The position numbers and the translations under genes were made by a program. Below the pieces are notes generated by a model. That model ran no database searches and had not been told where the DNA came from. It saw only the letters and a list, made by a program, of their open reading frames with translations. Below are positions 46,499-63,461 of a stretch of 64,000 nucleotides of DNA, piece by piece. Each line of letters starts with the position of its first letter. The stretch's first letter is position 1. This DNA is from Campylobacteraceae bacterium (GTDB lineage Bacteria; Campylobacterota; Campylobacteria; Campylobacterales; Arcobacteraceae), in the NCBI GenBank assembly GCA_013215945.1, contig JABSOM010000006.1:124001-188000 (forward strand), in the 5' to 3' direction.

Positions 46499-47452
46499 AT
46501 GAATAAAAAATTAGCAACTATTGTTTTAGCAGGTGCAATATCAATTCCAGCTTTCGCGGCAGAATTTATAACAATTGGTACTGGTGGAGTTACTGGTGTT
46601 TATTACCCACTAGGTGGATCAATTTGTAGATTAGTAAATAAAGGTAAAAAAGAGCATGGGGTTAGATGTTCTGTAGAATCAACTGGTGGGTCAACGTATA
46701 ACTTGAATACAATTAGAGCTGGCGAATTAGATATGGGTGTTGCACAAGCGGATTGGCAATATCATGCATACAATGGTAGTGATAAATTTAAAGCAAATGG
46801 TGCAGATAAAAACTTAAGAGCTGTATTCTCTGTACATTCAGAGCCTTTTACTGTTATTGCAAGAGCTGATTCTGGAATTAAAACACTTGCTGATTTAAAA
46901 GGTAAAAGAGTTAATATTGGAAATCCTGGTTCTGGTAGTAGAAGTACTATGGAAGTTGTAATGAAAGCAAATGGTTGGACAAAATCTGACTTTAAATTAG
47001 CAGGTGAATTAAAAGCATCTGAGCAATCAAAAGCACTTTGTGATAATAAAATTGATGCAATGATTTATGTTGTTGGACATCCATCTGGAGCGATTAAAGA
47101 AGCAACTACTACTTGTGATAGTAAAGTAGTTTCATTTGAAGGACCAAATTTAGAGAAAATGCTTGCTGCTCATCCTTACTATGGAAAAGATATTGTTCCT
47201 GGTGGAATGTACAGAGGAAACCCTGATGATATTAATACATTCTCAATGGCTGCAACATTTGTAACTTCTTCAAAAATTTCTGAAAAAGTTGTTTATAATG
47301 TAGTTAAAGCAGTATTTGAAAACTTTGAAGCATTTAAAAAACTTCACCCAGCATTTACTAATCTTACTAAAGAAGCAATGATTAAAAATGGTTTATCAGC
47401 TCCTTTACATAGAGGCGCAATCAAATATTATAAAGAAGCAGGTTTACTGTAA
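46499..47452 (+). CDS. TAXI-family TRAP transporter solute-binding protein
   Basis: A 317-residue periplasmic binding protein. Signal peptide about 1-20 (AxA cleavage at FAA), then the TAXI family signature [20 protein letters not shown] and the paired [11 protein letters not shown] and DMGVAQADW blocks, [20 protein letters not shown], and a C-terminal helical part. TAXI proteins bind glutamate, 2-oxoglutarate or related acids; the ligand here is unknown. The ribosome site AAAGGAG is strong. It heads the operon with the fused permease and a small membrane protein. Confidence 0.93.
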
Positions 47453-47578: not shown

Positions 47579-50158
47579 ATGAATGAAGAAAAAAAACCTG
47601 AACTTTCTGGTGCAGAAATAGCAGCAGAATCAGAATCAGGAGGAAGAACACCCTCTAACCCTAATTTAGCTAATTTTATTGTTTATTTAGCGCTAGCATG
47701 GTCTGTATTCCAACTATATGTTTCATCCCCTTTGGTATTAGAGTTTACACCATGGATGAATGCCGATGTTGTTAAAAGAATTCACTTAATGTTTGCAGGT
47801 TTTCTTGCTTATATGAGTTATTTGCCATTAAAAAATTCTCCAAAACACTATGTTCCTATTACTGACTGGATTATGGGAATATTATTATTATTATGTGTTT
47901 CTTATTTAATTTACAATCAAGTATGGAATTCAGAAGTATTTGAAATGAGATTAGGAGTTCCAAATCAACTTGATTTAATTACATCTCTTATTGGTTTAGG
48001 GTTATTACTTGAAGCTGCAAGAAGATCACTTGGCCCTCCTCTTATGATAGTTGCGCTTTGTGCTTTAGTTTATGCATATTTTGGTTTAGGCGATTATGGT
48101 GGAGCTTCAATTAATAAAATTGTTTCTCATATGTGGATTACAACAGAAGGTACCTTTGGTATTGCTATTGGTGTATCTGCCACTATGGTTTTCTTATTTG
48201 TACTTTTTGGTGCACTTTTAGAGCAAGCAGGAGCAGGTAATTATTTTATTAGAGTTGCTTTCTCATTAATGGGTCACTTTAAAGGTGGACCTGCTAAAGC
48301 TGCTGTTGTATCTTCTGCGATGACGGGAATGATTTCTGGTTCTTCAATTGCAAATGTTGTTACAACAGGAACGTTTACTATTCCGTTGATGAAAAAAGTT
48401 GGGTTTTCGGCTGAAAAAGCAGGTGCTATTGAAGTTGCTGCTTCGACCAACGGGCAATTAACTCCTCCAATTATGGGAGCTGCCGCTTTTTTAATGGTTG
48501 AATATGTAGGAATTCCTTTTGTAGAGATTATTAAACATGCCTTTTTACCTGCAATTATTTCTTATATCGCACTTATTTATATTGTGCATTTGGAAGCAAT
48601 GAAGATGGATATGAAAGGTTTACCTAGAGTACATTTCATGACTAAAAAAGCAAAAATGATTGGTGTTTTATCTGTTATTATTATAATTAGTTTTTTAATG
48701 TATGTGCTCCCTCCTGTTATAGCATTTATTAAAATGACTATGGGTGATGATACTTTTATTTCTATTTTAGTTTTAATTCTAATTTCTTATGTAACGTTGG
48801 TGTATTTATCATCTAAGGTACCTGATTTAACAGATGATGATATTGTTGAATTACCGGAAGTTGGACTTACTGTTAAATCAGGTTTCCATTATTTATTACC
48901 TATTGTTGTTTTGGTTTGGTTATTAACAGTTGAAAGACTAAGCCCCGATTTATCAGCATTTTGGGCATCTATTTTTATGATATTTATAGTTCTTACTCAA
49001 AAACCATTAATGGACTTTTTTAGAAAAGAAGAGACTATTTTTGGAAGAATGGGTGAGAGTATTTACGATCTTAAAGAAGGTCTTGTAAATGGTGCTAAAA
49101 ATATGATTGGGATTGGAGTTGCTACTGCAGTTGCTGGAATTATTGTTGGAACAGTTACCTTAACAGGTGTTGGACAAGTGGTAATTGGATTAGTAGAGAC
49201 TATTTCTGGCGGAAATATTTTCTTAATTTTATTATTAACTGCAATCATTTCACTTATTCTTGGAATGGGATTACCTACAACTGCTAACTATATTGTAGTT
49301 TCTAGTTTAATGGCTCCTGTAATTGTAAGTTTAGGAGCAGCTAATGATATTGCTATTCCTTTAATTGCAGCGCATATGTTTGTATTTTATTTTGGTATTC
49401 TAGCCGATGATACACCACCTGTCGGGCTTGCCGCCTTTGCAGCCGCAGCCATATCAGGTGGAGATCCAATTAAAACAGGTATTCAAGGTTTTACTTATGA
49501 TATAAGGACTGCTTTATTACCATTTATGTTTATATTTAATACACAGTTATTAATGATAGGGATTGAAAATACTTTTGATTTTATTGTAGTAGTAATTACA
49601 GCCATTGTGGGAATGATGCTCTTTGCAGCAGCAACTCAAGGCTTCTGGTTGGTTAGAAATAAATGGTGGGAAACACTATTATTATTAGCAATAACATTCT
49701 TAATGTTTAGACCAGGATATATTTGGGACAAGGTACAAGCACCTTTTGAAAACAGACCAGGGTCTGAAATCTTCCAAATTGCGGGAACTATGCCTGCTGG
49801 TTCTACTTTAGAATTCACGGTAAAAGGAGAAACAATTGATGGAGATGAAAGAGTTTTTACTTTTGGACTTCCTTTATCAGAAGGTAAAAATGGAAAAGAA
49901 AGATTAGATGGTACTGGTTTTATGTTGGATAATATGTTTGGACCAATGGAAGTAGCAATGGTTAATCCAGGGCATAATAAACAAGTACAAGCGATGAAAA
50001 CTGCTGGTGTTGATAGCGGATGGATTGTTCAATCCGTAAGAGTTAAAACAGACAGATTACCAAAACAAATTGTTTTAATTCCTGTTTTTGCATTTTTATT
50101 CTTCATGGCATGGATGCAACTAAAACGTAAAAAAAGACAAGAAGAACAAAAATCTTAA
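47579..50158 (+). CDS. TRAP transporter fused 4TM/12TM permease with C-terminal DUF3394 domain
   Basis: An 859-residue membrane protein carrying small (about 30-180) and large (about 190-690) TRAP permease units in one chain, typical of TAXI systems. The large unit shows GALLEQAGAGNYFIRVA, AKAAVVSSAMTGMISGSS and LGMGLPTTANYIVVSSLMAP. After residue about 730 there is a non-membrane domain (GSTLEFTVKGETIDGDERV ...) that fits the DUF3394 extension, ending in a last helix and a lysine-rich tail. It is energised by an ion gradient and depends on the adjacent TAXI binding protein. Confidence 0.93.
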   Translation: MNEEKKPELSGAEIAAESESGGRTPSNPNLANFIVYLALAWSVFQLYVSSPLVLEFTPWMNADVVKRIHLMFAGFLAYMSYLPLKNSPKHYVPITDWIMGILLLLCVSYLIYNQVWNSEVFEMRLGVPNQLDLITSLIGLGLLLEAARRSLGPPLMIVALCALVYAYFGLGDYGGASINKIVSHMWITTEGTFGIAIGVSATMVFLFVLFGALLEQAGAGNYFIRVAFSLMGHFKGGPAKAAVVSSAMTGMISGSSIANVVTTGTFTIPLMKKVGFSAEKAGAIEVAASTNGQLTPPIMGAAAFLMVEYVGIPFVEIIKHAFLPAIISYIALIYIVHLEAMKMDMKGLPRVHFMTKKAKMIGVLSVIIIISFLMYVLPPVIAFIKMTMGDDTFISILVLILISYVTLVYLSSKVPDLTDDDIVELPEVGLTVKSGFHYLLPIVVLVWLLTVERLSPDLSAFWASIFMIFIVLTQKPLMDFFRKEETIFGRMGESIYDLKEGLVNGAKNMIGIGVATAVAGIIVGTVTLTGVGQVVIGLVETISGGNIFLILLLTAIISLILGMGLPTTANYIVVSSLMAPVIVSLGAANDIAIPLIAAHMFVFYFGILADDTPPVGLAAFAAAAISGGDPIKTGIQGFTYDIRTALLPFMFIFNTQLLMIGIENTFDFIVVVITAIVGMMLFAAATQGFWLVRNKWWETLLLLAITFLMFRPGYIWDKVQAPFENRPGSEIFQIAGTMPAGSTLEFTVKGETIDGDERVFTFGLPLSEGKNGKERLDGTGFMLDNMFGPMEVAMVNPGHNKQVQAMKTAGVDSGWIVQSVRVKTDRLPKQIVLIPVFAFLFFMAWMQLKRKKRQEEQKS

Positions 50159-50173: not shown

Positions 50174-50449
50174 ATGATTGAGTGGATTATACTTGTTGGT
50201 ATTGCAGTTGCAATGTATGTAATTATTTATAAGTACGAACAAAAGATGAACAAAATGCAAGAATTAATTGATGAGAATCGAAAGAATATTGATTCAAATA
50301 GAGACAGTATTCAAAACAATCAAGATAAAATCGTGAAAAATCATTCACGATTGGATGATCATTATAACCATATTGAGAAATTATGGGTTTCTTCTCCTAA
50401 AAAGAAAAAAAAGAAAAAAGAAGAGAGTTCAGAGGATAAAAGCCTTTAA
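50174..50449 (+). CDS. Small membrane protein with coiled coil, TRAP operon
   Basis: A 91-residue protein of unrecognised family. Residues about 3-21 form one membrane helix; residues about 25-70 are a heptad-like coiled coil rich in Asn, Asp and Lys (DENRKNIDSNRDSIQNNQDK), and the tail is a run of lysines followed by acidic residues. It lies 15 bases after the permease with an AAGGA ribosome site and before the operon terminator, so it is expressed with the transporter. An accessory or scaffolding role is conjecture. Confidence 0.7.
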   Translation: MIEWIILVGIAVAMYVIIYKYEQKMNKMQELIDENRKNIDSNRDSIQNNQDKIVKNHSRLDDHYNHIEKLWVSSPKKKKKKKEESSEDKSL

Positions 50450-50469: not shown

Positions 50470-50503
50470 AAGCCTAGTTATTTTATAACTAGGCTTTTTT
50501 TTT
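50470..50503 (+). terminator. Strong terminator of the TAXI TRAP operon
   Basis: A 12-base-pair stem (50470-50481 and 50485-50496, loop TTT) around AAGCCTAGTTAT runs into a T tract ending at 50503. It separates the TRAP operon from the GntR-aminotransferase-BKACE operon. Confidence 0.9.
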
Positions 50504-50615
50504 CTATTTTTTTTACCTACTATACTTACCTTTATTAGGAAACTAAAGTCCTCAACAAATCCTATTTAATTATTATTTTTAATTTAAAGTATTTTTAAGC
50601 AAAAAGAGCCTAAAA

Positions 50616-50646
50616 TTGTCGACAATAATATATATATTGTCGACAA
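50616..50646 (+). promoter_or_regulatory. Twin palindromic operators TTGTCGACAA of the GntR operon
   Basis: Two perfect copies of the 10-base palindrome TTGTCGACAA lie at 50616-50625 and 50637-50646, centred 21 bases (two helical turns) apart. The first abuts a TAAAAT that could be the -10 box; the second ends 11 bases before the GntR ATG. TnGTnnnACnA-like palindromes are typical operators of FCD-type GntR proteins, so autorepression is likely. GTCGAC is rare in such AT-rich DNA; I saw no other copy in the intergenic gaps I inspected. Confidence 0.8.
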
Positions 50647-50657
50647 AAGGAAATACT

Positions 50658-51296
50658 ATGTCCCTTAAAATAAAGGACAATTTAAAAAACATGATAGTGG
50701 ATTATATTTTTGAAGCCATACTTAATAATGAATTCAAAAGTAAAGATCAAATAAAAGAAACCCACCTAGCAAATAAGTTAAAAGTAAGTAGAGCCCCAAT
50801 AAGAGAAGCTTTTTCACATTTGGTAAGTTTAGGAATTCTTGAGCAAATAGAAAAAAGAGGTGTATTTGTAAAAGAAATTAATAAACAAGATATTATTGAT
50901 ACCTATGAAGCAAAAGGAATAATAGAAGGTTTTTTAGCAACCTCTTTTATTACACATGCAACTAAAAAAGATTATGATTTATTAAATGCTTATGTAATAA
51001 AGATGAGTAAAAATACCAACAGTGAAAAAGATATTGCTGGTATTGGAACTCTTTTTCATAAACATTATTTAAAGTACGCTAAAAATCTTCTTTTATTAAA
51101 TGAATTGGAAAAACTAAATAAAAAGTCTCATTTACTTTTTTCAAAAAATCTTTCAAAATTATATTCAAGAGAAGAAATAAAACAAAGACATCAATTAATT
51201 GCAGATGCTTTGATAAGCAAAAATACACAAAACATTGAAAATACAATAAAAGAACACTATTTCCATACAGGAAATAAGATTATTTTATTACGTTAA
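50658..51296 (+). CDS. GntR-family (FCD) transcriptional regulator
   Basis: A 212-residue regulator from the ATG at 50658 (AAGGAAAT upstream; the TTG at 50616 lies inside the operator and is rejected). Winged helix at about 1-70, with the GntR recognition block KLKVSRAPIREAFSHLVSLG, then an all-helical FCD ligand domain with conserved metal-site histidines (FHKHY and HQLIADAL regions). The two upstream palindromes point to autoregulation. It is followed by an aminotransferase after 9 bases, so it probably controls that operon in response to its substrate. Confidence 0.9.
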   Translation: MSLKIKDNLKNMIVDYIFEAILNNEFKSKDQIKETHLANKLKVSRAPIREAFSHLVSLGILEQIEKRGVFVKEINKQDIIDTYEAKGIIEGFLATSFITHATKKDYDLLNAYVIKMSKNTNSEKDIAGIGTLFHKHYLKYAKNLLLLNELEKLNKKSHLLFSKNLSKLYSREEIKQRHQLIADALISKNTQNIENTIKEHYFHTGNKIILLR

Positions 51297-51305
51297 GGAT
51301 AAAAC

Positions 51306-52652
51306 ATGAGTTCAAAATATATTTTACAAAGAAGTTTAAAAGCAGATCTTCCTGTTGCTGTAAAAGGTGATGGTATTTATCTCATTGATGAAAATGGGAA
51401 AAGATACTTAGATGGTTCCTCAGGTGCCGCCGTATCTTGTTTAGGACATAGCAATCAAAATATTAAAGATGCCATAATAAAACAGTTAGATGCTTTACCT
51501 TATGCACATACTTCTTTTATGACGTCTAAACCAGCAGAAGAATTAGCACAAATGCTTATCTCTAGAGCTCCTGATAATTTTGATAAGGTTTATTTTTTAA
51601 CGGGAGGTTCTGAAGCAGTTGAAACGGCTTTAAAACTAGTAAGACAGTATCATCTTGAAAATAAGGAACCACAGCGTAAAAATATTATTGCGCGCTTACA
51701 AAGTTATCATGGAAATACGCTGGCCACTTTAGCAACAGGTGGAAATATAAAAAGAAAAGAAGCTTTTCTACCATATCTGCCTACATGTATGCACCATATT
51801 GACCCCGTTTATGCTTACAGACTTAAAAAAGACAATGAAAGTTTGAGCGAATATGGTTTGAGAGCTGCTAATTTATTAGAAGAAAAAATCTTAGAATTAG
51901 GAGCCCATACTGTATCCGCATTTATTTTTGAACCTTTAGTTGGTTCAACCCTAGGTGCTGTTGAAGCACCTCTGTCTTATTATAAAAGAGTAAGAGAAAT
52001 CTGCGATAAATATGGAGTATTACTTGTATTTGATGAAATCATGTGTGGAACAGGAAGAACGGGATATTTATTTGCAAGTGAATATACCCATGTCAAACCA
52101 GATTTAATTACTATTGCTAAAGGAATTGGTGCTGGTTATCAGCCCTTAGCTGCTTGTTTAATTTCTAAAAAAATTTGTAAAGCTATTGAAGAAGGTTCTG
52201 GAGATTTTTCTCATGGACATACTTATATTGCACATGCAACAGCTTGTGCTGCAGGAATTGCTGTTTTAAAAGAATTTGAGAATGAAAATTTATTAGAAAA
52301 TGTTCAAAAAATGGGGCATTATTTAAAAAGCACCTTAGAAAAAAGATTTTTTAATCACAAGCATGTAGGAGATATCAGAGGAAGAGGTTTATTTATTGGT
52401 TTAGAGCTTGTAAAAAACAGAAAAACAAAAGAATGTTTTGATCCCAAACATAAACTTTTTGCACATATAAAATCAACAGCAAAAAACTTAGGATTACTTT
52501 GTTATCCAATGGGTGGAACTAACTTTGGAAAAGAAGGTGACCACATTTTATTAGCACCTCCTTTTATAATTAATAAAGAACAAGTTTTAGAACTCGTTGA
52601 TATTTTAGAAAAAGCAATTAATCAAAGTTTAGAAGAAAAAGGTTTAGTATGA
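51306..52652 (+). CDS. Class III (omega-amino acid type) aminotransferase
   Basis: A 448-residue PLP enzyme of fold type I, class III. Marks are YLDGSSGAAVSCLGH near the start, LTGGSEAVETALKL (about 98-111), the DEIMCGTGRTGYLF block after the PLP-pyridine aspartate, the PLP-binding lysine K272 in TIAKGIGAGYQP and a HGHTYIAHATACAAG block. Class III enzymes act on terminal amino groups (beta-alanine, GABA, taurine, polyamines) or beta-amino acids. Pairing with a beta-keto acid cleavage enzyme four bases overlapped downstream suggests the product is a beta-keto acid, so a beta-amino acid substrate is plausible. Confidence 0.9.
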   Translation: MSSKYILQRSLKADLPVAVKGDGIYLIDENGKRYLDGSSGAAVSCLGHSNQNIKDAIIKQLDALPYAHTSFMTSKPAEELAQMLISRAPDNFDKVYFLTGGSEAVETALKLVRQYHLENKEPQRKNIIARLQSYHGNTLATLATGGNIKRKEAFLPYLPTCMHHIDPVYAYRLKKDNESLSEYGLRAANLLEEKILELGAHTVSAFIFEPLVGSTLGAVEAPLSYYKRVREICDKYGVLLVFDEIMCGTGRTGYLFASEYTHVKPDLITIAKGIGAGYQPLAACLISKKICKAIEEGSGDFSHGHTYIAHATACAAGIAVLKEFENENLLENVQKMGHYLKSTLEKRFFNHKHVGDIRGRGLFIGLELVKNRKTKECFDPKHKLFAHIKSTAKNLGLLCYPMGGTNFGKEGDHILLAPPFIINKEQVLELVDILEKAINQSLEEKGLV

Positions 52653-53485
52653 ATGCAGGAATAATGGTAGCACCTAATGGGGCAAGGTTATTACAAGATG
52701 AACATGAAGCTTTACCCTTAAAAGAAGAGCATATTGCAAATACGGCTTATGAATGTGAACAAGCAGGAGCGCAAGCAATACATTTACATGTAAGAGCCGA
52801 TAATTTCAAACATATTTTAGATGTAAAAAAATATCAAGATACAACAAAAGCTATAAAAAAACTTTGTTCAAAAGATTTTATCATACAAGCTACTACAGAA
52901 GCAGTTGGAATGTATAAAGCAAATGAAATGATATCCTTAATAAAAGAGTTAAAACCACAGGCAACATCTGTTGCAATTAGAGAGCTTATTTTAAATGATA
53001 CAAAAGAAGAACTGCATGCTGCAAAAGATTTTTATTCTTTTGCAAGAGAAGAAAATATTGGGGTTCAGCATATTTTATATTCGATTGAAGATGTCAAACG
53101 TTTTGCGAATCTTTTGGAGCGAGAAATCATTCAAGGAAATAAACACAGTATTTTATTTGTCTTGGGACGTTATGCAAAAGATCAGCGCTGTGATGCTAAA
53201 GATTTAATTCCGTATTTACAAAGTTTAAAAGACTTGTCTTTAGAAAAAGATGTACATTGGATGTTATGTGCTTTTGGAGAAATGGAAATTCCTTCTTTAT
53301 CAGCAGCTGCTGTTTTAGGAGGGCATAATAGAATTGGTTTCGAAAACTCAAGAAAACTTCCTAATGGAGATATAGCCTTAAGTAATCAAAAACAAGTAGA
53401 ATATTTAAGAAATCAATTAAAAGCCTTAAATATTAAAAAAGTGTCAACACAAAATATGAGAGAAATATTAGGAATATTTAAATAA
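52649..53485 (+). CDS. Beta-keto acid cleavage enzyme (BKACE, DUF849)
   Basis: A 278-residue TIM-barrel metal enzyme of the Kce/BKACE family, which converts a beta-keto acid plus acetyl-CoA to acetoacetate plus a shorter acyl-CoA. The zinc-site histidines H45 and H47 are in AIHLHVRA; VAPNGARL and the C-terminal GGHNRIGFEN are also family motifs. The usual aspartate after HLHVR is replaced by alanine here (RADN), a small deviation. The start overlaps the aminotransferase stop by four bases. The keto acid substrate is not predictable, but acetoacetate would be expected as product and the genes to use it lie within 10 kb. Confidence 0.85.
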   Translation: MNAGIMVAPNGARLLQDEHEALPLKEEHIANTAYECEQAGAQAIHLHVRADNFKHILDVKKYQDTTKAIKKLCSKDFIIQATTEAVGMYKANEMISLIKELKPQATSVAIRELILNDTKEELHAAKDFYSFAREENIGVQHILYSIEDVKRFANLLEREIIQGNKHSILFVLGRYAKDQRCDAKDLIPYLQSLKDLSLEKDVHWMLCAFGEMEIPSLSAAAVLGGHNRIGFENSRKLPNGDIALSNQKQVEYLRNQLKALNIKKVSTQNMREILGIFK

Positions 53486-53494: not shown

Positions 53495-54139
53495 TTATTC
53501 TACTTCAAACATATAACCTCGATTAGAAGAAGCAAGAATGTAGGTTTTTTCGAATTTTTTTCTTAATCTTTTAATCAGTGTTCTAATAGCATCCAAAGAA
53601 GCATAGTTTCCTTCCCAAACATAGTTTTGTATGTTCTCATAAGAAACAATTTCATTTTTATTTCTTAAAAATAAATTCATTAATAAATTCTCTTTTTGTG
53701 TCAATTGGCTTTTTTTATTTTCAATACTAATACAACTCTCTGAAAAAGAAAAATAACAATTTTTATCAAAAGCTACTGTTTTTTTAGTAATATTACACAG
53801 TTTATCTACTTTAATTTCTAGTTCATCGATAAAAAAAGGTTTTTTTAAATAATCATTACAACCAAAATCATAGGATTCTTTAATAATATCTAATTCTACG
53901 GTTGCTGAAATAATAATAACAGGAACATCATCATAATATTCTCTTATTTTTTTAAGAATTTTAATACCATTAACATTAGGAACATTAATATCTAAAATAA
54001 AACAAGAATATCCATTTGTGATATTAGAATAGGCTTCTTTTCCATCAATAAAAGAGTCTACTTGATAACCTTTTAATTCAAATTTTAGAATAATGGTTTC
54101 ATTTAATGTTTTGTTATCTTCTAATAATAGTATTTTCAT
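53495..54139 (-). CDS. OmpR-type response regulator of a cytosolic two-component pair
   Basis: A 214-residue regulator with receiver domain (acidic pair E7-D8, phospho-acceptor D50 in CFILDINVP, ISATVE threonine position replaced by A-T, KKPFFID lysine) and a C-terminal winged helix containing LTQKENLLMNLFLRNK and LDAIRTLIKRLRKKF. It follows the kinase gene by one base and converges with the BKACE gene at 9 bases. Position suggests that it could regulate the surrounding catabolic genes, but no target site was identified. Confidence 0.9.
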   Translation of the reverse strand: MKILLLEDNKTLNETIILKFELKGYQVDSFIDGKEAYSNITNGYSCFILDINVPNVNGIKILKKIREYYDDVPVIIISATVELDIIKESYDFGCNDYLKKPFFIDELEIKVDKLCNITKKTVAFDKNCYFSFSESCISIENKKSQLTQKENLLMNLFLRNKNEIVSYENIQNYVWEGNYASLDAIRTLIKRLRKKFEKTYILASSNRGYMFEVE

Positions 54140-54140
54140 G

Positions 54141-55256
54141 TTATTTCTCTTTACTTTTAGGAATTTTTATGGTGAAAATTGCATTGTTTTTGTCATTATG
54201 CGCAGTAATTTTCCCATGCATTTTATCTTCTATAATTATTTTTGCCATGTATAAACCAAAACCTGTACCATTTACATTGGTAGTAAAAAAAGGCTCAAAA
54301 AGCTGTTCTTTTATCTCTTCATTAATAGCCCCCGCATTGTCTTTTATTTCTATTAAATTATAATCATTACAAAAAGAAAGACGAATATTTATTTTTCCTT
54401 TAAAATCTGAGCTTTCATTGACTTTAACTATTTTGTTTTTAGCATTGTTAATAATATTCAATAACACTTGTTTCATTTCATTTTCATAACCATAAATAAA
54501 CATTTCATCTTTCACTTCTTCAAAATCAAAAATGACTTGAATATTAAAATAAAAAATCTGTTTTCCTACAATATCAAAAATATCACGTATGGCTTTTTTG
54601 ATACCAAAACTTTTTTTTAGTGTAGAAGGTTTTAAAAAGTTTCTAAAATCACTTAAGGTTTCTGACATATATTGTATTTGAATCATAGAGTCATTAACAA
54701 AATCAGACATTTTGTCTTTATTGATTTTATCCATGTTGTAATACAACTGCATTCTTTGAATTTGTGCAGAGAGTTCTACTAAAGGTTCATTCCATTGATG
54801 AGCAATAGAAGCAATCATTTCTCCCATTTCAGCAAACTTGCTTTGTTGAATTAAAAACTCTTTTTCTTTTATTCTTTCTGTAATATCATTCATCACACAG
54901 ACAATACCAGCCACTTCTCCATTAGGATGCAAAGAGACTGCTTTGTTTAAAATAAAATATAAAATTTCACCTTTATTGCTTATAAAATAGACTTCATCTT
55001 CATAAGGTTTTAAGGTACTCATAATATTTTTATCAATTATTTTATGTCTGTCAGTTACTGTTTTAGGGAAAAAGTCATAGGCAGAGTTACCTATGATTTT
55101 TTGTTTACTCGTGCCAAGAAGTTTAGCAAAAGAGGTATTACAACGAATAAACATTCCTTGCATATCTTTATAATAAACAGGATTGGGAAGGGTATCTAAT
55201 AAAACATCCTCAAAGGTTAAGTTGCCTCGTAAAGATTTTTTCTTTTTTGTTTTCAT
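54141..55256 (-). CDS. PAS-domain soluble histidine kinase
   Basis: A kinase of 371 residues from the ATG at 55254-55256 (AAAAGG six bases upstream; the ATG at 55274 lacks a site). No membrane helix or signal peptide is visible. PAS domain at about 20-125 (LLDTLPNPVYYKDMQGMFIR ... GNSAYDFFP ... VCVMNDITE), HisKA with H153 in SIAHQWNEP, then HATPase (NIINNAKNKIVK N-box, EIKDNAGAI, GTGFGLYMAK). It would sense a cytosolic signal such as redox state or a metabolite. It lies 53 bases downstream of the thiolase gene. Confidence 0.88.
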   Translation of the reverse strand: MKTKKKKSLRGNLTFEDVLLDTLPNPVYYKDMQGMFIRCNTSFAKLLGTSKQKIIGNSAYDFFPKTVTDRHKIIDKNIMSTLKPYEDEVYFISNKGEILYFILNKAVSLHPNGEVAGIVCVMNDITERIKEKEFLIQQSKFAEMGEMIASIAHQWNEPLVELSAQIQRMQLYYNMDKINKDKMSDFVNDSMIQIQYMSETLSDFRNFLKPSTLKKSFGIKKAIRDIFDIVGKQIFYFNIQVIFDFEEVKDEMFIYGYENEMKQVLLNIINNAKNKIVKVNESSDFKGKINIRLSFCNDYNLIEIKDNAGAINEEIKEQLFEPFFTTNVNGTGFGLYMAKIIIEDKMHGKITAHNDKNNAIFTIKIPKSKEK

Positions 55257-55309
55257 TACATACCTTTTTAACATTTTAGAATTATATCAAAGAGTATTTA
55301 ATAATACTA

Positions 55310-56509
55310 TTAGTTTACTCTTTTTAATAAAACAGCCGTTCCTAAGCCTCCACCTATACATAAAGAAGCAATGCCATATTCACTTTTTCTTTTTAACATT
55401 TCATGTACCAATGAAACAATAATTCTATTTCCACTTGCACCTACTGGGTGACCTAATGCAATACCAGAACCATTTACATTGATTTTTTCATTGATATCTT
55501 TCTCACTTAAGTGACATGTTTCTTTTAACATTTCAAAAACTCCCAAACTTTGAGCAGCAAAAGCTTCATTAATTTCCATAATATCAATATCCTCAAAGGT
55601 CATTTTCGTTTTTTCAAGCAAAGCTTTAATAGCATAAGCAGGGCTTAAACCCATCACATTAGGATCGATTCCAACTTGAGTATGAGCAATAATTTCAACT
55701 AATGGTTTTAAATTTAATTCTTTAACTGCTTTTTCAGAAGCAAGAAGAGTAAAACTAGCACCATCATTTATTCCAGAAGCATTACCAGCAGTTACACTTC
55801 CACCTTTTTTAAAAGCAGGTCTTAAACTTGATAATTTTTCCAAAGAGGTTCTTCTATTTATATATTCATCTTTTGAAAAAATAGTATCCCCTTTTCTGTT
55901 TTTTATAACAATAGGCGTAATTTCATCTTTAAATTTATTCTCATCATCAGCTTTTATCGCTTTCTTTTGAGAATTAATTGCATATTCGTCTTGTTTTTCT
56001 CTTGATATAGAATATTTGTCCGCAATATTTTCAGCAGTAATACCCATATGGTAACCACCAAAAGCATCCATTAAAGCATCATTAACCATAGAATCAACCA
56101 TAGTTACATTTCCAAGCCCTAAACCACTTCTTCCTTTTCCTGGAAGTAAATAAGGTGCGCTTGACATAGATTCAACCCCACCTGCAATAATGACATCTTT
56201 TTCACCTGCTTTAATTTCAGAAACACCTGTCATTAACGCTTTCATTCCAGAACCACATAACATATTTAAAGAATAAGCAACAGTAGATTCACTAAGGCCT
56301 CCATAAATTGAAGCCTGTCTTCCTATTCCTTGAGAATGTCCAGCAGATAAAATATTCCCAACAATCACTTCATCTACTCTGTTTTTATCAAAATCTTTTA
56401 CAAGATCTTTTATTACTTCACCTGCTAAATGTCCAGGATCTAAATCTTTTAAAGATCCTAAATAACTTCCAATTGCAGATCGTTTTGCTTCTACTATATA
56501 TACTTTCAT
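55310..56509 (-). CDS. Acetyl-CoA C-acetyltransferase (thiolase)
   Basis: A 399-residue degradative/biosynthetic thiolase (AtoB/PhaA type) splitting acetoacetyl-CoA with CoA into two acetyl-CoA. The nucleophilic C85 is in NMLCGSGMKA, the general-base H354 in ALGHPVGASG and the second cysteine C384 in SLCIGGGLGTA. It lies 8 bases after the CoA-transferase B gene, forming an acetoacetate-activating and cleaving module with the two transferase subunits. Confidence 0.94.
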   Translation of the reverse strand: MKVYIVEAKRSAIGSYLGSLKDLDPGHLAGEVIKDLVKDFDKNRVDEVIVGNILSAGHSQGIGRQASIYGGLSESTVAYSLNMLCGSGMKALMTGVSEIKAGEKDVIIAGGVESMSSAPYLLPGKGRSGLGLGNVTMVDSMVNDALMDAFGGYHMGITAENIADKYSISREKQDEYAINSQKKAIKADDENKFKDEITPIVIKNRKGDTIFSKDEYINRRTSLEKLSSLRPAFKKGGSVTAGNASGINDGASFTLLASEKAVKELNLKPLVEIIAHTQVGIDPNVMGLSPAYAIKALLEKTKMTFEDIDIMEINEAFAAQSLGVFEMLKETCHLSEKDINEKINVNGSGIALGHPVGASGNRIIVSLVHEMLKRKSEYGIASLCIGGGLGTAVLLKRVN

Positions 56510-56517
56510 ATTATTCC

Positions 56518-57153
56518 TTAGTCTTTTAACGCTACAACATAAGAAGCAGGGGTTAATGCTTTAATTTCTTCTAAACTAACACCCTTACTTAATTCAGTTA
56601 AATGAAGTTTATTATTAATAAACTCAAAAACGCCCATTTCAGTAATAATCATATCTACTACTGCTTTTCCTGTTAAAGGAAGAGTACATTTTTTAAGTAT
56701 TTTAGGATTCCCACGTGCCGTATGAACCATAGAAATAATCACTTTTTTAGCACCATTGACTAAATCCATTGCTCCTCCCATTCCAGGTAATAGTTTTCCA
56801 GGAATTTTCCAGTTAGCAAGATTTCCTTCTTCATCTACTTCAAGAGCTCCTAATACTGTCATATCCAAATGCCCTCCTCTGATGATTTCAAAAGAGGTAA
56901 CAGAATCAAAGAAAATACCCCCTTTTTGAAGCACCACATTCGTACCTCCTGCATCTACAACATCTTTATCTAAGGTTTCTTCGTTAGCTTTATCCCAAAC
57001 ACCAGCAAATCCATTTTCAGAATGAAGATTAATATGAATATCTTTTGAAATATAATCTACTGCTAAAGTAGGTAGTCCAATTCCTAAATTAACAAAATCA
57101 CCATTTTTGAATTCTTGTGCAACACGTGCAGCTATTATTTGTTTTGCTTCCAT
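56518..57153 (-). CDS. 3-Oxoacid CoA-transferase subunit B
   Basis: A 211-residue beta subunit of a type I CoA-transferase (AtoA/ScoB type) moving CoA from an acyl-CoA such as succinyl-CoA to acetoacetate. The catalytic glutamate is E46 in HSENGFAG; VNLGIGLPTL and the GGHLDMTVLGALEVD block are family motifs. It follows subunit A with a 2-base gap and precedes the thiolase. Confidence 0.93.
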   Translation of the reverse strand: MEAKQIIAARVAQEFKNGDFVNLGIGLPTLAVDYISKDIHINLHSENGFAGVWDKANEETLDKDVVDAGGTNVVLQKGGIFFDSVTSFEIIRGGHLDMTVLGALEVDEEGNLANWKIPGKLLPGMGGAMDLVNGAKKVIISMVHTARGNPKILKKCTLPLTGKAVVDMIITEMGVFEFINNKLHLTELSKGVSLEEIKALTPASYVVALKD

Positions 57154-57155
57154 CT

Positions 57156-57803
57156 TTAGGCCTTTATAATATGATTAATGTAAATAAATGGAGTATGGAT
57201 AAAATTGGGATCTAATTCGCCATTTTTAACAATTTCTTCTACCTCAGCAATTGTTACTTTTGCAGCTCCAGCCATTGGAACATTAAAGTTTCTAGTTGCT
57301 CCATTAAATACCAAGTTCCCGGCTTCATCTGCTTTTTGTGCTGAAATAAATGCCAGATCAATTTTAATTGGTAATTCTAAAATATAATCTTTTCCATCAA
57401 TTGTAATTACTTCTTTTCCAATTTCAACTTCAGTACCTAAACCTGTTTGTGTTAACACTCCCCCAAGTCCTGCAGCCCTCGCTCGTATACGTTCAGCCAA
57501 GGTTCCTTGAGGTACAAGTTCTAAATCAATAAAGCCTTCAATAACTTGTTTTTGTGTTTCTTTATTCGTACCAATATGAGAAGCCAACAGTTTTGTAATT
57601 CTTCTGTCATCAATTAAACGTCCAATACCATATCCATCTCTTGCAGTATCTGTAGCAATTAGTGTTAAATTTTTAACATTGCTTTTTAAAATTTCGTCAA
57701 TGATATTATGTGCATTACCACAGCCCATAAAACCACCAATTGCAATAGTCATTCCATCTTTTAAAAATTCAGAAATTTGGTGTATTTGTATTTGTTTTTC
57801 CAT
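57156..57803 (-). CDS. 3-Oxoacid CoA-transferase subunit A
   Basis: A 215-residue alpha subunit (AtoD/ScoA type) with the CoA-transferase glycine loop IAIGGFMGCGNAHNII near residue 21, LTLIATDTARDGYGIG, and AERIRARAAGLGGVLTQTG. It pairs with the adjacent subunit B to activate acetoacetate. A 14-bp inverted repeat lies 28 bases before its start, and the preceding bdhA terminator separates it from that gene, so it probably has its own promoter. Confidence 0.93.
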   Translation of the reverse strand: MEKQIQIHQISEFLKDGMTIAIGGFMGCGNAHNIIDEILKSNVKNLTLIATDTARDGYGIGRLIDDRRITKLLASHIGTNKETQKQVIEGFIDLELVPQGTLAERIRARAAGLGGVLTQTGLGTEVEIGKEVITIDGKDYILELPIKIDLAFISAQKADEAGNLVFNGATRNFNVPMAGAAKVTIAEVEEIVKNGELDPNFIHTPFIYINHIIKA

Positions 57804-57830
57804 ATTGTTTTCCTTAATAAACAGCTAATA

Positions 57831-57870
57831 AATCACAAATAAAAGAATCTAAATTATTTTATTTGTGATT
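57831..57870. promoter_or_regulatory. 14-base inverted repeat in the CoA-transferase leader
   Basis: AATCACAAATAAAA (57831-57844) and its perfect inverse (57857-57870) flank a 12-base loop, 28 bases upstream of the subunit A start. It may be an operator or an mRNA hairpin. The gap to bdhA otherwise holds a terminator and AT-rich sequence. Confidence 0.5.
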
Positions 57871-57960
57871 TTCTTCTTCTAATTATAAAACGAAAAAATG
57901 ATATTATTATGACAGTTTGAGAGAAAATGATTTATTTAGCTATAAACACTTTTTTTACCC

Positions 57961-57984
57961 AAAAAATAAGACAAAAGCTGCCTT
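57961..57984 (-). terminator. Weak terminator after bdhA
   Basis: On the minus strand a six-base-pair stem with one G-U pair (57968-57973 with 57979-57984, loop of five) follows the dehydrogenase stop by eight bases and runs into a T-rich tract at 57961-57967. It likely ends the mmsA-bdhA transcript. Confidence 0.5.
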
Positions 57985-57992
57985 ATTCTTCT

Positions 57993-58769
57993 TTATTGAA
58001 TCGTATATCCACCATCCATTACTAAAGCTTGTCCTGTAATTGATCTTCCATGTTCGCTTGCTATAAACATGGCGTAATTGGCAATTTCATCACAGCTTAA
58101 TAATTTCTTTTGAGGAACCAGTTTTAAAATGACTTCTTCTAAAACATCTTCTTCACTCATATTCCTGTTTTTGGCAATATCTGCTAATTGATTTCTTACT
58201 AATGGTGTATCCACATATCCAGGACAAATTGAATTAACCGTAATATTATCTTCTGCACCTTCTAACGCTGCCACTTTTGTAAGCCCCAATAAACCATGTT
58301 TTGCAGAGTTGTATCCTGCTTTTCCAGCAAATCCAACCAGGCCATTAATAGAAGCCATATTAATTATTCTTCCAAAACCTTGTTTTTTCATAATAGGGAA
58401 CAACTCTTTTATCGCAATAAAAGGACCCACTAACATTAGTTTTAACATAAACTCATATTTAGAAGTAGGAAAATCTTCTATTTTATCAACATGTTGAATC
58501 CCCGCATTTGAGATAAAAATATCAATACGTCCATAATGTTTCATACTTTGTTTAATTAAGTTTTTAATATCTTCTTCTTTAGAAATATCACAAGGTATTG
58601 CTAAAACGTCATATCCTGCATTAATAAATTCTTGATGAACCTTAGTTAATGCTTCTTCATTAATATCAGATAATACAATTTTTGCTTCATTTTTTGCAAA
58701 TACTCTTGCTATACTTAAGCCAATTCCAGATGCGGAACCCGTAATTATTGTTATTTTATTTTTTACCAT
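57993..58769 (-). CDS. 3-Hydroxybutyrate dehydrogenase (SDR family)
   Basis: A 258-residue short-chain dehydrogenase from the ATG at 58767-58769. The longer frame to 58841 would overlap mmsA and lacks support. NAD motif TGSASGIG (10-17), NAG at 88-90, catalytic S140, Y153 and K157 in GYNSAKHG, and the GIQHVDKIEDFP block (about 90-101) typical of D-3-hydroxybutyrate dehydrogenases. It would oxidise 3-hydroxybutyrate to acetoacetate, feeding the CoA-transferase and thiolase beside it. Confidence 0.87.
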   Translation of the reverse strand: MVKNKITIITGSASGIGLSIARVFAKNEAKIVLSDINEEALTKVHQEFINAGYDVLAIPCDISKEEDIKNLIKQSMKHYGRIDIFISNAGIQHVDKIEDFPTSKYEFMLKLMLVGPFIAIKELFPIMKKQGFGRIINMASINGLVGFAGKAGYNSAKHGLLGLTKVAALEGAEDNITVNSICPGYVDTPLVRNQLADIAKNRNMSEEDVLEEVILKLVPQKKLLSCDEIANYAMFIASEHGRSITGQALVMDGGYTIQ

Positions 58770-58782
58770 AATTCTACTTTTA

Positions 58783-60282
58783 TTATTTTGAGTGGTCTTC
58801 TTTAAAATTAAAAGCAACCTCTTCATGTTCTTCTTCTTCAAACCATTTCTCTGTTACTGTTTTTGTTTCTGTATAAAAGGTTATTGCCTGTTTTCCATAA
58901 GCATGCAAATCCCCATAAAAAGAGCCTCTCCATCCAGTAAAGGAGAAAAAAGGTAAAGGAACAGGTATGGGTACATTAATACCCACTTGCCCAACTTTCA
59001 CTTCTCTTCTAAACTTAGTTGAACTGGCCCCACTGGAAGTAAAAATAGAAGTTCCATTACCAAACATATTGTTATTAATAATATCTAAGGCTTCATTTAA
59101 GTTTTTAGGTTGCATTATGCTTAATACAGGTCCAAAAATCTCTTCTTTATAAATACTCATATCAGTAGTAACTTCTGAAAAAACGGTAGGCCCAATCCAA
59201 TTTCCTTTATCATACCCTTTTACTTTTGCCCCTCTTCCATCTAATAATAATGAGGCTCCAGCATCCACACCTTCTTGAATAAATCCTTCAATTCGATTAA
59301 GTGCCATTTTTGTCATAACAGGCCCATAAGAAGCACTCTTATCGTTCCATGCTCCTGGTTTTACTTTACTTAAGGCTTCTACTAACTCAGAAATCCATGC
59401 TTTTGCTTGTCCTACAAATAAAACAACAGATATACCCATACATCTCTGTCCTGCTGCTCCCATAGAAGCTCCAATGAGCGCATTTATAACATTTTGTTTA
59501 TTCGCATCAGGCATAACGACTAAGTGATTTTTTGCTCCCACAAAAGCTTGTGCTCTTTTTAAATTAGCAGTAGCTCTTGAATAAATGTAAGAACCAACAG
59601 CAGGAGAACCTACAAAAGAATATGCTTGTACTAAATCATGATCTAATAAAACATCCACTTGTTCTTTTTGTCCATGTATTATTTGTAATAAATCTTTTGG
59701 TGCTCCTGCTTGAATAAACAGCTCTGCTAACTTCATTGCTGTATTGGGAACCATCTCTGAAGGTTTTAAAATAAATGCATTTCCACATACAATAGCTAAA
59801 GGAAACATCCACAAAGGTATCATTGCAGGAAAATTAAAAGGTGTAACTCCTGCACAAACTCCTAAAGCTTGTCTATAAGAGTAAGTATTCATTTTAGTGG
59901 AAACATTTTCAATGGTTTCCCCCATCATTAAAGTAGGAGCAGAACAAGCAAACTCAACCACTTCATAACCTCTTACGATATCTCCTTTTGCATCATCTAA
60001 GGTTTTACCTTGTTCAATACTTAAAATTTCTGCAAGTTCATCAATATTTTCTTTAATCAATGCTTGATATTTTAACATTAGACGTGTACGTGTCATTATA
60101 GGCGTATCTTTCCATGACAAATAAGCACGGTGCGATTTCTCAATAGCTGCACTTATTTCATCTTTTGTACTTAAGGGAACCAATACTTGTACCTCTTGCG
60201 TTAAGGGACAAATTTTCTCATAAAACTTATCTGTATTACTTTGTATAAATTCATTACTTACCATTATGTTTAATTTTTTCAT
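58783..60282 (-). CDS. mmsA: CoA-acylating methylmalonate-semialdehyde dehydrogenase
   Basis: A 499-residue aldehyde dehydrogenase. Catalytic C281 sits in [10 protein letters not shown], the family-specific form that replaces the usual GQ-C-x-A; N150 in TPFNFPAM and the EEIFGPVL block fit MmsA. It converts methylmalonate semialdehyde (from valine or 3-hydroxyisobutyrate) to propionyl-CoA, and malonate semialdehyde to acetyl-CoA. Start chosen at the ATG with AAGGA upstream. Neighbours are bdhA and the TRAP genes; mmsB lies at the end of the window. Confidence 0.93.
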
Positions 60283-60370
60283 TGTATTCCTTGTTTTATA
60301 ATTTGATTTATTTGAAAGTATTTTCTTTGAAAACTAAGTAGCTGTGCTAAATATGTACTCAAGAATGAAG

Positions 60371-60393
60371 GCAGTTTCAAAAGATGAAACTGC
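60371..60393 (-). terminator. Hairpin between dctM and mmsA
   Basis: A nine-base-pair perfect stem (60371-60379 and 60385-60393, five-base loop) follows the dctM stop by six bases. There is no clear T-run on the minus strand, so partial termination or RNA stabilisation is possible before mmsA. Confidence 0.5.
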
Positions 60394-60399
60394 ATTTAT

Positions 60400-61788
60400 T
60401 TACGTATAAGCGATGGATGGTAACCATGTAACAATTTCTGGAAAAGAAAAGACAATGGCCAAACCAATAAGTTGCAAGATAATAAAAGGAATAACCCCTT
60501 TATAAATATCACTTAATTGTATTTCAGGAGGACAAACCCCTTTTAAATAAAATAAAGCAAAACCAACAGGAGGGGTTAAAAATGACGTTTGTAAGGTCAT
60601 TGCAACTAAAAGAACGAACCAGACTAAAGTAGGGTTTTCAATTCCAAAACCATTAATTTCTAAAGCAAGTTCACTAATAATAGGTGCTACTAAAGGTAAA
60701 ATAATTAAAGTAATTTCAATCCAATCAAGAACAAAACCTAAAACAAATATCAATCCAAGTATAAATAAGATAATAATAACAGGGTCTTCAGAGATAGAAT
60801 TAAGAGCTGACATAATTAATTCATCTCCACCTAATTCTCTTAATACCAAAGAAAAACAAGTAGCTCCTACAAAAATTGCAAAAATATATCCTGTCGTATT
60901 CATAGTTGCTTTTGAAATCTTTAGCACTTTCTTAAAAGTAAGTTGATGGTTCATAAGCATTAACAATAAAGAGCCAAATGCTCCAATTCCAGCAGCTTCA
61001 GTAGAAGTTGCCAAACCAAAAAAGATAGAACCTAAAACAGCTAAAATTAAAAATGCAGGAGGAAGAATATTTTTAAATAAATCCCATACTAGGTTTATTT
61101 CGCTTTCATCATCCAAAGAACTAGTAACTAAAGGCATTTTTCTAGGCCGAACTATTCCTAAAATAACTAAATAACCTACGTATAAAGCACCTAAAATCAA
61201 GCCAGGAAAGACTGCACCCATAAAAAGATTTCCCACAGAAATACTCAATTGATCAGCCATAATAATAAGCATAATACTAGGAGGAATAAGTATTCCCAGA
61301 GTCCCAGAACTAGCAATTACTCCAAGTGCAGTTTGTTTATCATAACCTTGTTTTAGCATTACAGGTAAAGACATTACCGCCAATAAAACAACAGATGCAC
61401 CAATAATACCTGTAGAAGCTGCTAATAAAACTCCTAAAATGACAACAGTAATAGCTAAACCACCTCTCATTTTTCCAAAAAATCTTTGCAAAGACGTAAG
61501 AAGTTTTGCTGCAATTCCAGATTCATCTAAAGCAAGACCCATAAAAATAAACATAGGCAAAGCAACTAGAATCCAGTTGTCCATAATTTTAAAAATTCTA
61601 TTACTTAATAAACCAATTGTATTATAATCTAAGCCTGTAATAGTGCCTAAATATAAATCAGATAAATACCCAATACCAGCAAAAGCAATACCAACACCTG
61701 CTAAAACCCATGCAACAGGAATTCCAGAAATTAATAAAAATATAAATGAAAGAAACATTGAGATGACTAGATATTCGTTAATTTCCAT
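60400..61788 (-). CDS. TRAP transporter large permease (DctM)
   Basis: A 462-residue DctM-type permease with about twelve membrane helices. Family blocks are GIPVAWVLAGVGIAFAG near the start, VALPMFIFMGLALDESGIA near residue 75, GSGTLGILIPPSIMLIIM and QTSFLTPPVGFALFYLKG near residue 414. Together with DctQ and DctP it imports a carboxylate-like substrate on a sodium gradient. It overlaps dctQ by 11 bases. Context suggests a hydroxy- or oxo-acid such as 3-hydroxybutyrate or 3-hydroxyisobutyrate. Confidence 0.93.
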   Translation of the reverse strand: MEINEYLVISMFLSFIFLLISGIPVAWVLAGVGIAFAGIGYLSDLYLGTITGLDYNTIGLLSNRIFKIMDNWILVALPMFIFMGLALDESGIAAKLLTSLQRFFGKMRGGLAITVVILGVLLAASTGIIGASVVLLAVMSLPVMLKQGYDKQTALGVIASSGTLGILIPPSIMLIIMADQLSISVGNLFMGAVFPGLILGALYVGYLVILGIVRPRKMPLVTSSLDDESEINLVWDLFKNILPPAFLILAVLGSIFFGLATSTEAAGIGAFGSLLLMLMNHQLTFKKVLKISKATMNTTGYIFAIFVGATCFSLVLRELGGDELIMSALNSISEDPVIIILFILGLIFVLGFVLDWIEITLIILPLVAPIISELALEINGFGIENPTLVWFVLLVAMTLQTSFLTPPVGFALFYLKGVCPPEIQLSDIYKGVIPFIILQLIGLAIVFSFPEIVTWLPSIAYT

Positions 61789-62383
61789 TTTTCACTCCTT
61801 TTGTTAAAAATGAGATATGCCGTATTAAACGAGAAAAACTCGCAATTAACAATAATATAAAACTAAGTGGCAAAACACTTTTTATGAGCCAACGATAAGG
61901 CAAACCCTCAGGAGAACCGGAACGCTCATTTATTCTTAAGGCTTGCATTGTCATATCAATTCCGTAATCAATAACAATCAACATAAAAGGAAGCATTAAA
62001 AATAAAATTCCTATAATTTCTATTTTCCGTTGGGTTTTTGTTGAGAAATGTATTCGAGCAATATCCACACGAACGTGAGAATGATTAACCATTGCATACG
62101 ACAATCCAAACATAACAATCATGGCATATAAGTGCCATTGTAATTCTTCTAATTGTATAAAATTAATACTAAGCGTATATCGAAAAAAGACTTGAATAAC
62201 AATGATAGCAATTAATAATAGGCACAGTCCAGAAATGACTGTCCCTATTTTATAGACTATAGAATCCAAAAGAATACAAATCTTTGGTATTTTTTCATTT
62301 TTGAGTCCTCCTTGAAGTTCAAGAGTATGACTCACCTCATCATAACTTTTAACAGGCTCTACAATATGATCTTTTGCTTCCAT
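61778..62383 (-). CDS. TRAP transporter small permease (DctQ)
   Basis: A 201-residue small subunit with a longer cytosolic N-terminus (about 1-35) and four membrane helices, showing the DctQ ELQWHLYAMIVMFGLSYAM motif (about 80-98) and the DIARIHFSTKTQRKIEIIG loop. It lies 28 bases after dctP and overlaps dctM. Confidence 0.88.
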   Translation of the reverse strand: MEAKDHIVEPVKSYDEVSHTLELQGGLKNEKIPKICILLDSIVYKIGTVISGLCLLLIAIIVIQVFFRYTLSINFIQLEELQWHLYAMIVMFGLSYAMVNHSHVRVDIARIHFSTKTQRKIEIIGILFLMLPFMLIVIDYGIDMTMQALRINERSGSPEGLPYRWLIKSVLPLSFILLLIASFSRLIRHISFLTKGVKNGN

Positions 62384-62411
62384 AATAATCCTTTAATTTT
62401 CTAAATTAATA

Positions 62412-63461
62412 CTATCTTGGTAAAAATGCTAATTTACTCCAATAAGAATAATCTGCTCTAAATTTTTCTAAGTCACTCCAAACTGTATTAAAAGTTTCAT
62501 CTTGTTTAAGATCAACCAGTGCTTCTTTCCAAGCACCTTTAAATGCATCTAACATTTCAGGAGACCATTTTTTAACAATTACACCACGGTTTTCAATATT
62601 TTCTTTAATAACTGCACCTTGAACTGCTTCACTTTCAGCCAATGAATCTGTCATATTTGCTTTACAAGTCATTTCAATTGCACTTTGTTGCATATTAGAC
62701 ATTTTATTCCATGTTTTATTATTAATTAATAATTCAAAAACAGTAGCTTGTTGATGCCATCCTGGGAAATAATTAAATTTTGCAATTTTGTAAAACCCTA
62801 ATAGTTGATCAACTACGGGCATTGAGAATTCACTGGCATCAATTACCCCTTTTTCTAAAGCAGAAAAAATCTCACCACCTGGTAAGAGAGATATTGAAGC
62901 CCCAAGTTTAGTCATAACATCTCCACCTAAACCAAAGAATCTCATTTTAAGACCTTTTAAATCCTCAGGAGAATTAATCTCTTTTTTATACCAACCAGCA
63001 GTTTCTGGTGAAGAAATGGAACAAGGTAATACATGAACATTGTATTTCGCATCATCATACATTTTTTGATACAATTTTAAACCATTTCCTTTGTATAACC
63101 ATGAGAAAAACTCAGGTGCTTCTGGTCCAAAAGGAACAGATGAAAAAATGGCTGCCGCAGGCATTTTCCCTTTCCAATAACCAGCTGTTGACCAACCCGC
63201 ATTTACTTTTCCACTTGAAACTGCATCTAATATTTCAAAGGGAGCTACTAGTTTCTTAGGCTCATATATTTTAACTTTTAATGTTGAAGAAATTGATTCA
63301 AGACCTTTTTTAAATGCAGGTAAGGGTGTACCTAAACCAATCAGATTTGTAGAAAACGTTGTTGGAACTTTTAATAAAACTTTTTTCTCAGCTGCTGCAA
63401 CACTTGTTGCACAAATACTTAAGGATACTAATCCTGTTACTGCTAAATTTTTAATATTCAT
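62412..63461 (-). CDS. TRAP transporter solute-binding protein (DctP)
   Basis: A 349-residue secreted binding protein (signal peptide about 1-23). The DctP pattern includes LKIYEPKKLVAPFEILDAVSSG, SAGWYKKEINSPEDLKGLKM-like selectivity-helix region (ETAGWYKKEI, then KGLKMRFFG with the carboxylate-binding arginine), LPGGEIFSALEKGVIDASEF and a C-terminal helical part. Such proteins bind organic acids; by context a branched or 3-hydroxy acid is likely. Its gene heads the transporter genes, 85 bases after mmsB in the same direction. Confidence 0.9.
   Translation of the reverse strand: MNIKNLAVTGLVSLSICATSVAAAEKKVLLKVPTTFSTNLIGLGTPLPAFKKGLESISSTLKVKIYEPKKLVAPFEILDAVSSGKVNAGWSTAGYWKGKMPAAAIFSSVPFGPEAPEFFSWLYKGNGLKLYQKMYDDAKYNVHVLPCSISSPETAGWYKKEINSPEDLKGLKMRFFGLGGDVMTKLGASISLLPGGEIFSALEKGVIDASEFSMPVVDQLLGFYKIAKFNYFPGWHQQATVFELLINNKTWNKMSNMQQSAIEMTCKANMTDSLAESEAVQGAVIKENIENRGVIVKKWSPEMLDAFKGAWKEALVDLKQDETFNTVWSDLEKFRADYSYWSKLAFLPR

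Follow-up and report, generated by a model that had tools for sequence, protein, structure and literature searches.

A 64-kb window of a 3.24-Mb Campylobacterota genome (Arcobacter group) carries, at positions 50616-53485, a three-gene operon encoding a GntR/FCD transcriptional regulator, a class III aminotransferase and a DUF849 protein, and we consider with moderate confidence that this operon serves the catabolism of beta-glutamate (3-aminoglutarate), with coenzyme A (CoA)-independent loss of CO2 yielding acetoacetate. In the predicted pathway, a VcGluP-type TAXI-TRAP transporter would import beta-glutamate, the aminotransferase would pass its amino group to a keto acid and leave 3-oxoglutarate, a beta-keto acid, and the DUF849 enzyme, of a zinc TIM-barrel family, would convert 3-oxoglutarate to acetoacetate and CO2 without acetyl-CoA. 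Activation and thiolysis of the acetoacetate would follow, with the neighbouring AtoDA and AtoB as one possibility, and the GntR/FCD protein would bind paired copies of TTGTCGACAA and repress the operon until a beta-glutamate-related effector appears. More tentatively, and somewhat short of an even chance, this may be a widespread, undescribed beta-glutamate pathway in which the DUF849 protein is a dedicated zinc 3-oxoglutarate decarboxylase without CoA-dependent cleavage, and the GntR regulon elsewhere governs a glutamate-2,3-aminomutase-like enzyme. Beta-glutamate is the simplest common denominator because glutamate-type transporters accompany the enzymes and an aminomutase lies under the common operator. 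An initial annotation of this DNA had proposed that a beta-amino acid is transaminated to a beta-keto acid, which is still the best reading; it had not taken in the adjoining transporter or the shared operator, both of which now point to beta-glutamate.

All three genes lie on the forward strand. The regulator (50658-51296, 212 aa) matches PF00392 and PF07729, the aminotransferase (51306-52652, 448 aa) belongs to the PRK07483 group (NF005685, 654 bits against a cut-off of 485; Aminotran_3 PF00202, 328 bits), and the DUF849 protein (52649-53485, 278 aa; PF05853, 173.8 bits against a gathering score of 24.8) has the fold of a beta-keto acid cleavage enzyme (BKACE), is non-canonical in its active site and is proposed to be a 3-oxoglutarate decarboxylase. 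Gaps of 9 bases between regulator and aminotransferase and -4 bases between aminotransferase and DUF849 gene bear out the tight operon described initially, in coordinates and families as well as spacing. The regulator very probably starts at the ATG at 50658 (AAAGGAAATACTATG); a TTG at 50616 was rejected as its start because that codon falls within the first operator site. The pyridoxal phosphate lysine of the aminotransferase is Lys272, which is invariant, as are R9, H48, H68, H164, H310 and Y400 among the copies linked to DUF849 genes, and a HMMER alignment to 4a6r places no Arg at the canonical flipping-arginine position. The closest named relative is Arcobacter sp. NORP36 (locus L014), whose DUF849 protein is 92% identical.

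The DUF849 protein was aligned and placed in a tree with 23 relatives (n=24), against Kce (2y7d) and a protein of the R. pomeroyi pca (protocatechuate) operon. It shares its Pfam family with Kce-type BKACEs (PDB 2y7d, 8rio) and keeps the zinc ligands H45, H47 and E232 along with R228 and Y144, the counterparts of His46, His48, Glu230, Arg226 and Tyr145. It differs from the Kce type in having an aminotransferase neighbour and in several active-site residues, with R13 in place of Glu14, I142 in place of Glu143 and N233 in place of Asp231 (Kce numbering). Glu143 to Ile, Asp231 to Asn, Gly84 to Glu and Ser82 to Thr are found in all 24 subfamily members, and Glu14 to Arg and Val175 to Arg in 23 of the 24. 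Glu at position 143 is kept in 2y7d, 9zsc and 3no5, the solved DUF849 structures compared over the region. Kce Glu143 corresponds to Glu171 of BKACE15 because Tyr173 and Tyr145 are equivalent (PMC12871164), and Glu171 is the proposed catalytic base of BKACE15, where E171L abolishes activity (PMC11961710). The curated BKACE equivalog models are missed as well (99.9, 75 and 61 bits against cut-offs of 382, 430 and 350). Judged by sequence, the protein is a member of the family that lacks the tested traits of a canonical BKACE, since Glu143 and Asp231 are lost and the equivalog cut-offs are missed. Of the BKACE identity assigned initially, family membership therefore stands, and the ordinary acetyl-CoA-dependent enzyme does not, the catalytic Glu and Asp231 being lost throughout the subfamily. 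The Ala that follows HLHVR, singled out in the same annotation, was dropped as a meaningful change, as relatives have A, G, D, K or R at that position; the informative changes sit elsewhere in the active site. An AlphaFold model of the protein (two sequences) had a mean pLDDT of 50 and was too poor for a fold search.

The subfamily is strongly supported in the tree (100/100), and aminotransferase-linked and other members are intermixed within it. Three loci have an I143/N231 DUF849 gene by or near carnitine-dehydrogenase-like (3-hydroxyacyl-CoA/3-hydroxyacid) dehydrogenases (L016:8066-9798, L060:2311-9816 and L062:7940-9804), and tripartite tricarboxylate or TAXI transporters (carboxylate) are present there; these loci possibly serve 3-hydroxyglutarate catabolism. 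The intermixed tree would be explained if 3-hydroxy and 3-amino acids both led to one common beta-keto acid.

Distribution was surveyed in 104 genomes of the family and 396 other sampled genomes of the phylum, and outside Campylobacterota in plasmid records, which are a biased sample. Among the 104 family genomes, G000, G271, G273 and G266 alone have a true DUF849 orthologue (53-92% identity), two further matches being 26-27% identical stretches within longer frames. The aminotransferase, at E<1e-120, occurs in exactly the same four, always adjacent, and in none of the 396 other phylum genomes sampled. All four keep the order GntR-aminotransferase-DUF849 and have a VcGluP-like TAXI gene nearby. 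A contig scan with the single protein returned the 92% relative alone. Beyond the phylum, a Thalassospira plasmid carries RpiR-aminotransferase-DUF849-TAXI-permease, a Haematobacter plasmid has the same order, and aminotransferase-DUF849-TAXI occurs on a plasmid of Vibrio sp. THAF64. On a Rhizobium sullae plasmid a TAXI-TRAP system lies near both enzymes, and plasmids of Paracoccus pantotrophus, Shinella, Sinorhizobium chiapasense and R. leguminosarum carry C45 hydrolase-GlnQPH-aminotransferase with DUF849. The two enzyme genes are also neighbours in Limimaricola, Tritonibacter, S. meliloti pSymB and Microvirga. A survey for such pairs and their transporters, as suggested in the initial annotation, shows that the pair recurs widely, often beside TAXI-TRAP or GlnHPQ, and is not unique to this genome. 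Aminotransferase and DUF849 protein form a functional unit, because the enzyme pair stays constant across lineages while regulator and transporter change, and the undescribed amino acid catabolic route that had been proposed is plausible. An S. meliloti expression paper was set aside, as it covers the neighbouring SMb20278-85 genes, which are not shown to be this pair. Several aminotransferase-DUF849 loci, among them that of Shinella HZN7 (L063:3421-4464 and 11822-12964), have a C45 acyltransferase/hydrolase beside GlnQPH; the Shinella locus also has a peptidase of the S58/P1 family nearby. The S58/P1 family includes beta-aminopeptidases, and these hydrolases may release beta-amino acids from conjugates.

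The transporters bear on the substrate. Upstream of the operon lies a gene for a TAXI-family TRAP solute-binding protein of the VcGluP (glutamate-binding) type (46499-47452, forward strand; TIGR02122, 362 bits), whose closest solved structure is 8s4j, VcGluP (455 bits, 65% identity). VcGluP binds L-glutamate, and mutation of its Tyr45 or Gln93 causes severe loss (PMC11574862). The window protein keeps Y45, S75, Q93, E125 and Y200 and differs by D157S, M201V and S40G. It thus resembles the VcGluP/VcGluQM TAXI-TRAP system of Vibrio cholerae (PMC11574862) in its amino-group ligands and in a membrane subunit with a C-terminal extension, and is unlike it in D157S, M201V and the linkage of its genes to aminotransferase-DUF849. 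The GlnH of the Shinella locus scores above the curated GlnH cut-off; by predicted family, the one enzyme pair is thus accompanied by transporters of two unrelated types, both for amino acids resembling glutamate. Elsewhere, in G276, an IclR regulator, a class V aminotransferase/cysteine desulfurase-like protein and a VcGluP-like TAXI-TRAP system occur together (L075:4676-10757), where a glutamate-like amino acid may be put to a different use.

Two exact copies of TTGTCGACAA, 21 bp apart, precede the regulator (site 1, 50616-50625; site 2, 50637-50646), the first conserved in L021, L022 and L023. They are the only copies in the genome, where a reversed-pattern control occurs 14 times and where chance alone would give about 3 single sites and about 1e-4 close pairs. 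With the 11-bp spacer, the pair occurs in 7 of the 104 family genomes, against 1 for the reversed control. It precedes orthologous GntR regulators in the window genome, G271 and G273, and in G266 a single site lies before the GntR gene and a pair before the TAXI gene, which makes a common regulon of importer and enzymes probable there. The twin perfect operators reported at the outset are exact, unique to this place in the genome and recurrent upstream of orthologous regulators.

The remaining three of the seven genomes with the operator pair (G229, G230 and G231) are of one genus, g8, and both enzymes are missing from them. The pair there lies upstream of a GntR homologue (40-44% identical to the window regulator, 41-45% in the effector domain), and downstream of that homologue come an ATP-grasp ligase and then a radical-SAM aminomutase (L090:3466-7370 in G229, L091:57-4276 in G230 and L092:160-4102 in G231). 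The aminomutase scores best, among all matching models, with glutamate 2,3-aminomutase TIGR04368 (323 bits; lysine 2,3-aminomutase, 267). An alignment to 2a5h places Ser and Thr at Asp293 and Asp330 of lysine 2,3-aminomutase, residues that hold the lysine side chain. The g8 operon may make or use beta-glutamate, perhaps a beta-glutamyl compound. Its ligase is weakly like the BesA/MfnD glutamate ligases. Beta-glutamate is the product of glutamate 2,3-aminomutase (as cited in PMC7835215). A gene related to that enzyme is under the common operator in g8; a search found no g8-type aminomutase in the window genome or in the other three genomes with the enzyme pair.

Decarboxylation is favoured over acetyl-CoA cleavage because the active site is altered and because a DUF849 group decarboxylates beta-ketoglutarate. 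That group, G6, is summarised as 'not BKACE, presenting decarboxylation activity', with 16 beta-ketoglutarate cases (PMC4922564). As summarised there, it has no BKACE activity and acts on beta-ketoglutarate, which would fit the proposed reaction if the present subfamily belongs to G6. That dependence is one of several points that weigh against beta-glutamate decarboxylation. Glu residues new to the subfamily, E84, E112 and E213, could replace the lost base and so permit CoA-dependent cleavage. At 323 bits the g8 aminomutase lies below the TIGR04368 cut-off of 650, and the g8 operon may be biosynthetic. No separate operator is recognisable for the TAXI gene in the window, L021 or L023. Some family genomes that lack the enzymes also carry VcGluP-like TAXI genes, and the pocket differences of linked and unlinked TAXI copies overlap; neither the transporter alone as a marker nor its pocket as a discriminator was retained.

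These points feed several alternatives. The same substrate could undergo canonical chemistry, 3-oxoglutarate and acetyl-CoA giving acetoacetate and malonyl-CoA with E84, E112 or E213 as base. The zinc ligands and the equivalents of Arg226 and Tyr145 are kept for such a reaction, every subfamily member has the new Glu residues, and the nearby AtoDA and AtoB would suit acetoacetate, but each of the 24 members has Ile at the position of the BKACE15 catalytic base, which resembles the inactive E171L mutant (PMC11961710), Asp231 is Asn, and the protein falls far below all curated BKACE equivalog cut-offs; we regard this course as decidedly unlikely. It is rather doubtful, too, that the transporter and aminomutase links mislead and that the substrate is another beta-amino acid (beta-glutamine, beta-alanine, 3-aminoisobutyrate, 3-aminobutyrate or a longer one). 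The VcGluP-type TAXI protein and the aminomutase operon indicate glutamate isomers, and beta-alanine routes need no DUF849 enzyme, even if class III aminotransferases are, as is generally known, often broad in range, the GlnH-type transporters of some species hint at an amide, and the C45 hydrolase accompanies GlnHPQ. An mmsA gene nearby, in the window and in G273, would also suit such a substrate; it was rejected as a pathway partner, for in G273 it lies by inositol-type genes and in the window it belongs to another operon.

The operon might run in the opposite sense, the aminotransferase aminating 3-oxoglutarate to make beta-glutamate as an osmolyte. The g8 operon, under the same operator, combines aminomutase and ligase and is possibly devoted to osmolyte synthesis; against this, importers are co-clustered with the enzymes and share the operator in G266, catabolic operons typically have a GntR/FCD regulator of their own, and no source of 3-oxoglutarate is evident, which makes biosynthesis very improbable. 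The least probable course is an alpha- or omega-amino acid substrate, such as aspartate, whose product oxaloacetate is also a beta-keto acid on which the DUF849 protein would act. A distant relative of the subfamily, cis-epoxysuccinate hydrolase (5zmy), works on a C4-dicarboxylate, and oxaloacetate is degraded by the structural relative ObcA (PMC12871164), but cells generally already have class I aspartate aminotransferases and the aminomutase link would be left unexplained. Catabolism of beta-glutamate by CoA-independent decarboxylation is preferred over each of these, and its product acetoacetate receives weak support from the AtoDA and AtoB genes 2 kb from the operon, weak because atoD is not exclusive: it occurs in 15 of the 104 family genomes, including each of the four that have the operon.

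As separate kinds of protein, DUF849 enzymes, beta-transaminases and VcGluP transporters were known before. What appears undescribed in the literature searched is their combination, together with the substrate proposed here and the changes in the DUF849 active site, and no paper describing genes for beta-glutamate breakdown was found there. The initial annotation named no transaminase among BKACE partners, a statement contradicted by the pairs on many alphaproteobacterial plasmids and by two published systems. In the Cloacamonas variant of lysine fermentation an acyl-CoA beta-transaminase works after Kce (PMC3149608). Both aminotransferases belong to DUF849-type pathways, the Cloacamonas enzyme being HemL-like and acting on 3-aminobutyryl-CoA after cleavage, whereas the window enzyme is of the PRK07483 type and is proposed to act before the DUF849 step. 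The engineered CORE cycle combines a beta-alanine transaminase with BKACEs (PMC11961710), and there likewise a transaminase makes the beta-oxo acid that a BKACE uses; unlike the window pair, that module is man-made, passes through malonate semialdehyde and employs a canonical BKACE.

Methanogens use beta-glutamate as a major osmolyte (PMC1224877). In Nitrosopumilus maritimus, an ammonia oxidiser of the ocean, it is more abundant than any other identified metabolite, reaching 730 mM in cells, and in two seawater profiles it rises with depth (PMC8269262). Its consumers matter because of this concentration in Nitrosopumilus and its greater abundance at depth. If the proposed pathway is correct, a PRK07483 aminotransferase gene adjoining an I143/N231 DUF849 gene would be a marker for beta-glutamate consumers, a function would be assigned to a non-canonical DUF849 subfamily, and the label '3-keto-5-aminohexanoate cleavage protein' would be wrong for its members.

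Around the operon, the TAXI gene is followed on the forward strand by a gene for a fused TRAP membrane subunit with a C-terminal DUF3394 (47579-50158; TIGR02123, 639 bits; PF11874), syntenic in the relatives L014, L021 and L023 and in Thalassospira (L020), and by a conserved 91-aa ORF (50174-50449) that is the last gene of the TRAP operon, 56-96% identical in L021 and L023, lysine-rich and coiled-coil-like, and had no match in a Pfam search. A terminator-like stem-loop, AAGCCTAGTTAT..TAACTAGGCTT with a T-run, identified by eye and unscored, lies on the forward strand between the TRAP and GntR operons at about 50470-50505. Downstream, on the reverse strand, a response regulator and a PAS-type sensor kinase (53495-55274; 98% conserved in NORP36) separate the operon from atoB and could regulate either neighbour. 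They are followed on that strand by an atoB-like acetyl-CoA C-acetyltransferase (55310-56509; TIGR01930, 455 bits) and atoA- and atoD-like CoA-transferase subunits (56518-57803; best matches TIGR02428, TIGR02429 and NF007394). These open a reverse-strand cluster (55310-63999), syntenic in NORP36, that continues with 3-hydroxybutyrate dehydrogenase, mmsA, a DctMQP TRAP transporter and a 3-hydroxyisobutyrate dehydrogenase-like gene, and is a probable 3-hydroxybutyrate/3-hydroxyisobutyrate catabolic unit.

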